A DNA stretch of 64,000 bases from Alkalihalobacillus sp. CinArs1 (lineage in GTDB: Bacteria; Bacillota; Bacilli; Bacillales; Guptibacillaceae), in NCBI RefSeq assembly GCF_947387515.1, contig NZ_CANDOB010000002.1, positions 682,001 through 746,000 of the forward strand, written 5' to 3'. A program made the translations under genes and the position numbers. A model generated the notes under the pieces. That model searched no databases. It was given only the letters and a program-made list of their open reading frames with translations, and was not told the origin of the DNA. Of the stretch, positions 51,103 through 51,903 are shown in pieces; within the stretch, counting starts at the first letter, position 1; each line of letters starts with the position of its first letter.

Positions 51103-51283
51103 ATCTTTTCCTCCTTAAATTTGATGGAATCGATTCTTAATATCACCAGAGAAAAAGTTTTTACTCTTAAAAAAAGCAGGATATTATTGTCAATCACAAT
51201 CTCTTTGATCATACAAAGAAACGAATGATTTAAGTGGGGTTCTCATATGATATAGGGCATGTGAAAAGAGGTGGAGAGTGGAT

Positions 51284-51874
51284 ATGTCAGAGGAGAGCCT
51301 GCCGTTTTGCGCACAAACGAACGATGTTGCGCCATTATTTCGAGCAACTGCTTACGATCCCATCAAAAAAGAAATCGTACAGGTTAGTCTAGAAGATTAT
51401 CGCGGTAGCTGGGTCATCCTATTTTTCTATCCCAGTGACTTCACATTTGTTTGACCAACAGAGTTAGCAGCGGTCGCTGCTAGTTATCCTGAATTAAAAG
51501 CGATCAACACGAATGTATTAGGAATTAGTACCGATAGTGTTTATTCTCACAAAGTTTTTACAGAAGTTTCTCCTTTAGCGGCAAAAGTCCGATATCCCCT
51601 TGTCAGTGACCGAAATCATCAAATAAGCAAATCATATCGCGTTTTAGAAGAACAGACAGGGACAGCTTTACGTGGAACAGTGATCATCGATTCTGTTGGT
51701 ATGATTCGTTCGAAAATGGTCTATCCTCCAGAGGTAGGCCGGAATTCATTCGAGTTAGTAAGACTTATTCATGCTCTTCAGTACCATAAAAAAACGGGAA
51801 AAGGTGTCCCGGCAAATTGGACGCCTGGTCAAGAGGGAATAACGATCACAACACAAAATATTGGTCAACAATAA
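51284..51874 (+). CDS. Peroxiredoxin-like gene with TGA at the peroxidatic Cys codon (candidate selenoprotein)
   Basis: A continuous 196-residue frame, broken only by TGA at 51452-51454 (residue 57). The sequence is that of an AhpC/TSA-type peroxiredoxin: VILFFYPSDFTFV-(TGA)-PTELAAVAASYPEL, where other members have FTFVCPTE, then LGISTDS, FHN-like and ALRGTVIID blocks, with ANWTPGQ near the end. The resolving Cys that should precede PANW is Val (GKGVPANW), so Cys9 is the only Cys. In known selenocysteine peroxiredoxins Sec replaces exactly the peroxidatic Cys. AGAGGTGGAG precedes ATG 51284, and a hairpin with a GGUC loop follows the UGA. The gene keeps its ribosome site, open frame and terminator. 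Alternative: a recent nonsense mutation. Confidence 0.8.
51462..51485 (+). other. SECIS-like hairpin just after the peroxiredoxin TGA
   Basis: Bases 51462-51471 pair with 51476-51485 (10 bp: A-U, G-U, U-G, U-A, then AGCAGC with GCUGCU), loop GGUC. The loop starts 18 bases after the UGA, inside the 16-37 base range of bacterial SECIS elements, and GGUC resembles the apical loop of E. coli fdhF as I remember it. Coding constraint in this stretch could also create it by chance. Confidence 0.5.
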
Positions 51875-51903
51875 AAGTAGCGAACTATTTTGCTGCTTTT
51901 TTC
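51873..51903 (+). terminator. Terminator after the peroxiredoxin-like gene
   Basis: AAAAGTAGC (51873-51881) pairs with GCTGCTTTT (51892-51900), one G-U pair, then more T. It starts at the stop codon and supports a living single-gene mRNA. Confidence 0.75.

Follow-up and report, generated by a model that had tools for sequence, protein, structure and literature searches.

The peroxiredoxin gene at positions 51284-51874 of the window, a 64,000-nucleotide stretch of the Alkalihalobacillus sp. CinArs1 genome (4.03 Mb, 99.76% complete), carries an in-gene UGA that is very probably read as selenocysteine (Sec). By computation, the TGA is conserved among homologous genes, a hairpin follows it, the genome holds the selenium machinery, the frame is under purifying selection and the resolving Cys of typical 2-Cys peroxiredoxins is absent. 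From these observations we infer Sec insertion, peroxidase activity and the involvement of a reductant. Our preferred reading, to which we give a probability of roughly 0.92, is a Prx1/AhpC-type peroxiredoxin whose UGA57 is decoded as Sec via the hairpin and which runs a 1-Sec cycle with an outside reductant. SelB and tRNA-Sec would decode UGA57, guided by the short hairpin just 3' of the codon; Sec57 would then attack the peroxide and become a selenenic acid, and an external thiol or redoxin would reduce the oxidised Sec in a '1-Sec' cycle, not through a 2-Cys inter-subunit disulfide. A sequence-only reading of the window had suggested that this could be a Sec-peroxiredoxin in a Bacillaceae genome, a suggestion supported by the machinery, the conserved TGA and the intact downstream frame.

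Reading frame and peroxiredoxin family

The frame comprises 197 codons including the stop, with a single in-frame TGA as codon 57 (51452-51454), at the Cys of FTFVxPTE. These points, together with the ribosome binding site, the terminator and the Val before PANW (codon 175), had been described in the sequence-only reading and were all recovered here. The features, in the numbering of the window, are as follows.

51284..51874, + strand: probable Sec-peroxiredoxin gene of the Prx1/AhpC type; 196 residues, Sec at position 57; ATG at 51284, TAA at 51874
51452..51454, + strand: UGA at the peroxidatic position, very probably read as Sec; TGA in 83/96 homologous genes, Sec machinery in the same genome
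51465..51482, + strand: conserved core of the probable SECIS hairpin, in frame; GGUC loop at 51472-51475, pairs 14-31 to 20-25 (numbering starts at the T of TGA)
51806..51808, + strand: Val175 codon, the place of the 2-Cys peroxiredoxin resolving Cys (from sequence and alignment)
51267..51274, + strand: ribosome-binding-site-like AGAGGTGG, 9 bases 5' of the ATG; AAAAGAGGTG stands ahead of the gene in all nine genus members compared
51244..51252, + strand: CATATGATA, possible -10 element fitting CATAnnnTA (mother-cell sigma E/K-like)
51873..51900, + strand: intrinsic-terminator-like hairpin of 12 pairs with a T-rich tail (terminator scan)

The terminator scan gave two such sites in 901 bases, against a shuffle mean of 0.6. 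The predicted protein matched the Pfam AhpC-TSA family with 119 bits (cut-off, 26), followed downstream by 1-cysPrx_C (PF10417). Its AlphaFold2 model (pLDDT, 90.3; pTM, 0.88; residues 1-7 below pLDDT 50) matched Prx2 and AhpC structures with TM-scores of 0.88-0.89, and the three best PDB matches include human Prx2 C172S and a resolving-Cys-to-Ala Salmonella AhpC in the substrate-ready form.

The protein shares its fold and active-site motif with AhpC and the typical 2-Cys peroxiredoxins, and the genome also encodes a paralogue of that type (L018) with FTFVCPTE. Unlike this paralogue, which keeps LCPANW, the window protein has Sec instead of the peroxidatic Cys, and Val175 where the C-terminal CPANW motif would supply a resolving Cys. 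Prx6-type 1-Cys peroxiredoxins resemble it in the absence of a resolving Cys and in the PF10417 match, but the active-site His that precedes their catalytic motif is missing: position 49, which we take to be the site of this His, is Tyr in the window family (82/82), ahead of FTFVUPTE. The closest NCBIfam model was PrxU (NF040737), presumably named for the Eubacterium acidaminophilum protein, with 163.8 bits against a cut-off of 270; the AhpC model TIGR03137 gave 156.9 bits (cut-off, 272). PrxU likewise has a Prx1-type sequence, and an internal TGA was found in 48/48 matches above its cut-off among 398 phylum genomes. The Bacillales proteins differ from it in scoring below that cut-off, the window protein barely above its own AhpC score, and in the motif SDFTFVUPTELAAVAA with mostly PANW, where all but one of the PrxU members read have PSGW or PAGW. 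All nine Sec proteins scored against PrxU (six from Bacillales, three from elsewhere) fell below the cut-off, with 145-193 bits. By sequence, the window gene is best placed as a member of a Bacillales subfamily of the known Sec-peroxiredoxins that lies below the NCBI PrxU cut-off. A standard reading ends at codon 57, and the NCBI Sec-peroxiredoxin model stays below its cut-off, so the genes of this subfamily are prone to annotation as broken.

Sec-peroxiredoxins are a known family (PMC1794560, PMC5029168, PMC9312934 and PMC13188914). The Sec-peroxiredoxin motif PxxxTxxU, as given in PMC13188914, fits P50SDFT54FVU57 of the window protein; among 82 relatives, T54 occurs in 81 and P50 in only 25. 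A table in PMC1794560 lists three selenoproteins from three families for Bacillales, and according to PMC7409299 a Sec-containing PrxU is raised in Sulfobacillus thermotolerans. The Sec-containing MsrA of Clostridium oremlandii, also a Sec enzyme of the 1-Cys type according to PMC4479559, belongs to another enzyme family with another substrate. A literature search, mostly of openly available journals, found no paper describing the Bacillales subfamily or its missing resolving Cys.

Selenium machinery and conservation of the TGA

A single locus of the same genome (L035) holds tRNA-Sec (anticodon TCA), SelB (639 aa), SelD and SelA together. The genome search for selA, selB, selD and selC that had been proposed from the sequence was therefore positive throughout, and the genome contains the complete gene set that goes with a bacterial Sec-peroxiredoxin. 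SelD starts upstream of the listed open reading frame and has an in-frame TGA of its own at the active site (KGGUGCK; L035:8313 to about 9362, - strand); Sec-SelD with GGUGCK was found in five genus genomes with the selD start in the sequence examined (G000, G001, G004, G005 and G006). selA exceeded the curated cut-off in 14/14 genus genomes versus 1/14 control genomes. tRNA-Sec exceeded the gathering score in 14/14 genus genomes and also in 5/14 controls, so this model alone is weak evidence; the call in G000 rests on the TCA anticodon and the place beside selB.

Formate dehydrogenase was considered as a selenium client and rejected: no match listed for the 14 genus genomes has an internal stop, and the enzyme therefore does not explain the keeping of the Sec machinery in the genus. 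Among the families looked at (peroxiredoxin, SelD and formate dehydrogenase), Sec-peroxiredoxin is the only client found besides SelD.

As a separate observation, an ABC transporter that by eye resembles PhnD/PhnE/PhnC in sequence lies between selB and selD outside the window (L035:5820-8279). The order selB-phnDEC-selD-selA recurs in 3/3 genus loci and in 2/12 selB loci of other genera (L195 and L200), selA also lying within 7 of those 12 stretches. The transporter could serve selenium uptake; a literature search returned nothing on a phnDEC-like transporter amid sel genes.

Codon 57 is TGA in 83/96 distinct homologous genes and TGC or TGT in the other 13, a placement at the peroxidatic codon that, judged from the alignment, is beyond chance. 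The set derives from 114 scanned loci. One of these, L151, had no match to the motif and was left out, its genome (G331) being counted with one TGA; a broken copy from the genus (L016) is within the 83 TGA forms and outside the 82 intact ones; and the Cys set is small (13), two short peptide patterns having served to select the named loci behind it. Among named organisms, the closest relative of the gene is in 'Alkalihalobacillus algicola' AmN0-13, now Guptibacillus algicola (82% identity). Within the genus, 14/14 genomes gave a match, and 13 of them have exactly one TGA and an intact frame past it. The sequence-only reading had named relatives with TGC or TGT at this codon, or with decay downstream of it, as the comparison to make; the genus relatives carry TGA, and intact copies prevail. 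Across the order, 54/397 genomes matched (E ≤ 1e-45), of which 52 have one TGA, one (G006) is broken and one (G190) has no stop; in the phylum sample all 27 matching genomes of 398 (E ≤ 1e-42) have the TGA, one of them two; for these order and phylum counts, the TGA position was checked on the loci read (the 96-gene set and 25 further). The TGA form is present in 53 of the 54 matching order genomes, or 53/397 overall, which makes the earlier description of such proteins as rare in Bacillaceae too strong.

A selB match of 3.7e-99 or better was found in 52/53 order genomes with the TGA gene (Fisher's test, p = 3e-19, kinship ignored), the exception being G211, an assembly of 480 contigs in which selA is present. 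selB exceeded the cut-off in 179/397 order genomes; at E ≤ 1e-30 its profile matches 397/397, since other elongation factors match too.

These data bear on the possibility that the gene is a decaying pseudogene, in which mutation of a Cys codon gave the TGA and loss of the resolving Cys followed. Decay does occur in the genus: the G006 copy (L016, C1:942934-943507) contains two TGA codons and a TAA and changes frame at about residue 110, and the absence of the resolving Cys would also fit. Set against this are the same TGA kept over 82 distinct intact genes, the strong selB match in nearly every TGA genome of the order, the purifying selection past the TGA and the silent sites that are quiet exactly at the hairpin (both below). 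We rejected the pseudogene reading on conservation, dN/dS and silent sites, and consider it highly improbable. G006 itself has kept selA, selB, tRNA-Sec and Sec-SelD despite its broken Sec-peroxiredoxin, so another selenium client may exist there. The Sec-peroxiredoxin of Melghirimyces profundicolus (L127) is out of frame past about residue 133, through a frameshift or a sequencing error.

Selection past the UGA and the hairpin

Between the window gene and its nearest relative (L004), dN was 0.112 and dS 1.32 downstream of the TGA, and dN was 0.147 and dS 0.85 upstream of it. For five pairs of closer relatives, the share of changed sites downstream was 0.016-0.025 at non-silent and 0.16-0.34 at silent positions; against more distant relatives, dS is near or past saturation. 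The dN/dS comparison proposed from the sequence thus gave purifying selection downstream of the TGA. It also weighs on the alternative that the UGA terminates and a short N-terminal product or a downstream restart is the functional protein. Table 11 treats UGA as a normal stop, and past it the frame is open by itself. Yet purifying selection acts on either side of the codon, a protein ending there would be missing most of the fold, and termination would leave without explanation both the covarying hairpin and the Cys codon found at this site in a relative without selA. We regard termination as having very little chance of being right.

Decoding of UGA57 as Sec would draw on the hairpin, a 10-bp helix that begins 8 bases past the UGA with a GGUC loop, as the sequence-only reading had described, the loop starting 18 nt past the UGA. 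Its folding energy in the window (-11.8 kcal/mol; z, -1.95) is modest as single-sequence evidence, and the 82 distinct intact Sec genes keep only about seven inner pairs of the helix. In these genes, four-fold silent sites at codons 62-66 had entropies of 0.70-0.86 bits, while the other 26 conserved four-fold columns were all at or above 1.49 bits (two columns at codons 58-59, 1.52-1.53; 24 outside codons 58-68, 1.49-1.98). Two pairs covary at silent positions: pair 18-27 (A-T in 59, G-C in 16, G-T in 7) and pair 21-24 (G-C in 69, A-T in 11, C-G in 2), each paired in 82/82 against shuffle maxima of 77 and 75, respectively. Pair 21-24 would close a two-base loop and may therefore reflect contact within the loop rather than pairing in the helix. 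Pair 15-30 was formed in 74/82 (shuffle mean, 67.9); pair 14-31 (72/82) was no better than shuffles, and pair 13-32 was formed in just 3/82. Four inner pairs are so constrained by the protein sequence that they show little variation, and they say nothing on RNA selection. Cys forms retain one to five of the seven pairs. Collectively, the pattern across relatives argues that a SECIS-type hairpin shortly past the UGA, as in bacterial Sec-peroxiredoxins, is kept by selection.

The one Cys-coding Bacillales relative found, G190 (L156), has TGT at the codon. Its genome gave no selA match and, for selB, nothing better than 5.0e-55, and its hairpin is degraded, with Met for Val64 in the loop and 4/7 pairs. 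In a quick tree, its long branch lies within the Sec clade and leaves a fork without resolution near the base of the Bacillales group.

Resolving cysteine and upstream element

The resolving column is Cys in 0/82 intact Sec forms (81 informative rows, as the M. profundicolus sequence is out of frame there and its residue says nothing) versus 12/13 Cys forms; the lone Cys form without it is G190. The resolving Cys was also absent in 25/25 further Bacillota Sec forms and, in a likeness to PrxU, in 30/30 PrxU members read, the best 30 of 48 above the cut-off. For 16 of the 25 further genes, a PrxU match above the cut-off coincides with the gene's position in its genome, and two of the 25 are also among the 30. 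The absent resolving Cys is therefore a clade feature, shared with Sec relatives. The sequence-only reading had held that its loss fits decay; since none of the Sec forms readable at the site has it, the loss is no sign of decay.

A joint tree of 108 rows required two Sec/Cys changes for the Sec forms, PrxU included, and two changes of the resolving Cys. A single event could account for both the gain of Sec and the loss of the resolving Cys; G190 makes up the other Sec/Cys change, and a Prx6-type paralogue the other change of the resolving Cys. The association is striking, but both traits divide along the same region of a single tree, so the link between them does not come from many independent events. 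The subfamily can serve as a natural experiment on the reasons for using selenocysteine: Sec goes with a lost resolving Cys throughout the clade, and one lineage, where no selA and no strong selB match was found, has returned to Cys.

Because the subfamily has no resolving Cys, oxidised Sec would have to be reduced from outside, and a 1-Sec cycle is the likeliest mechanism. A two-residue chemistry, in which Cys9, from the same subunit or its neighbour, resolves the selenenic acid by forming a selenylsulfide, is an unlikely variant of the Sec-peroxiredoxin. The column holds Cys in 69/83 Sec forms, where another resolver is possible, and also in the Cys-coding G190, but Cys9 is absent in 14/83 Sec forms, and 8/83 have no other cysteine at all within the aligned part.

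A conserved operon partner was sought and none seen: besides Sec-peroxiredoxin, no family of open reading frames occurs in more than 16/71 loci, most being in 9 to 12. Sigma A-like and sigma G/F-like boxes had no enrichment upstream of the Sec genes, and a sigma-70 scan gave one site against a shuffle average of 2.1. CATA is present upstream of 70/82 Sec genes (shuffle mean, 42; maximum, 54; reverse strand, 48/82). The longer CATAnnnT occurs in 27/43 representatives (<80% identity) versus 69/286 upstream regions of other genes at the same loci (p = 8.5e-7, post hoc); the motif was chosen after viewing the upstream sequences, which makes all upstream-motif p-values post hoc, most of all the one with an A at -19. 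CATAnnnT(A) resembles what we take to be the -10 consensus of the mother-cell sporulation sigma factors E and K, and the motif counts are suggestive of a sporulation-like upstream element of Sec-peroxiredoxin genes, which we treat as a lead. A fuller scenario is tentative and, on present weight, somewhat improbable: in spore formers, sigma E/K would drive a selenium-dependent peroxidase in the sporulating mother cell, and the enzyme would work by a pure 1-Sec cycle. The gain of Sec in one ancestral peroxiredoxin would have made the resolving Cys dispensable, and the reversion in G190, which also lacks that Cys, would not have restored it.
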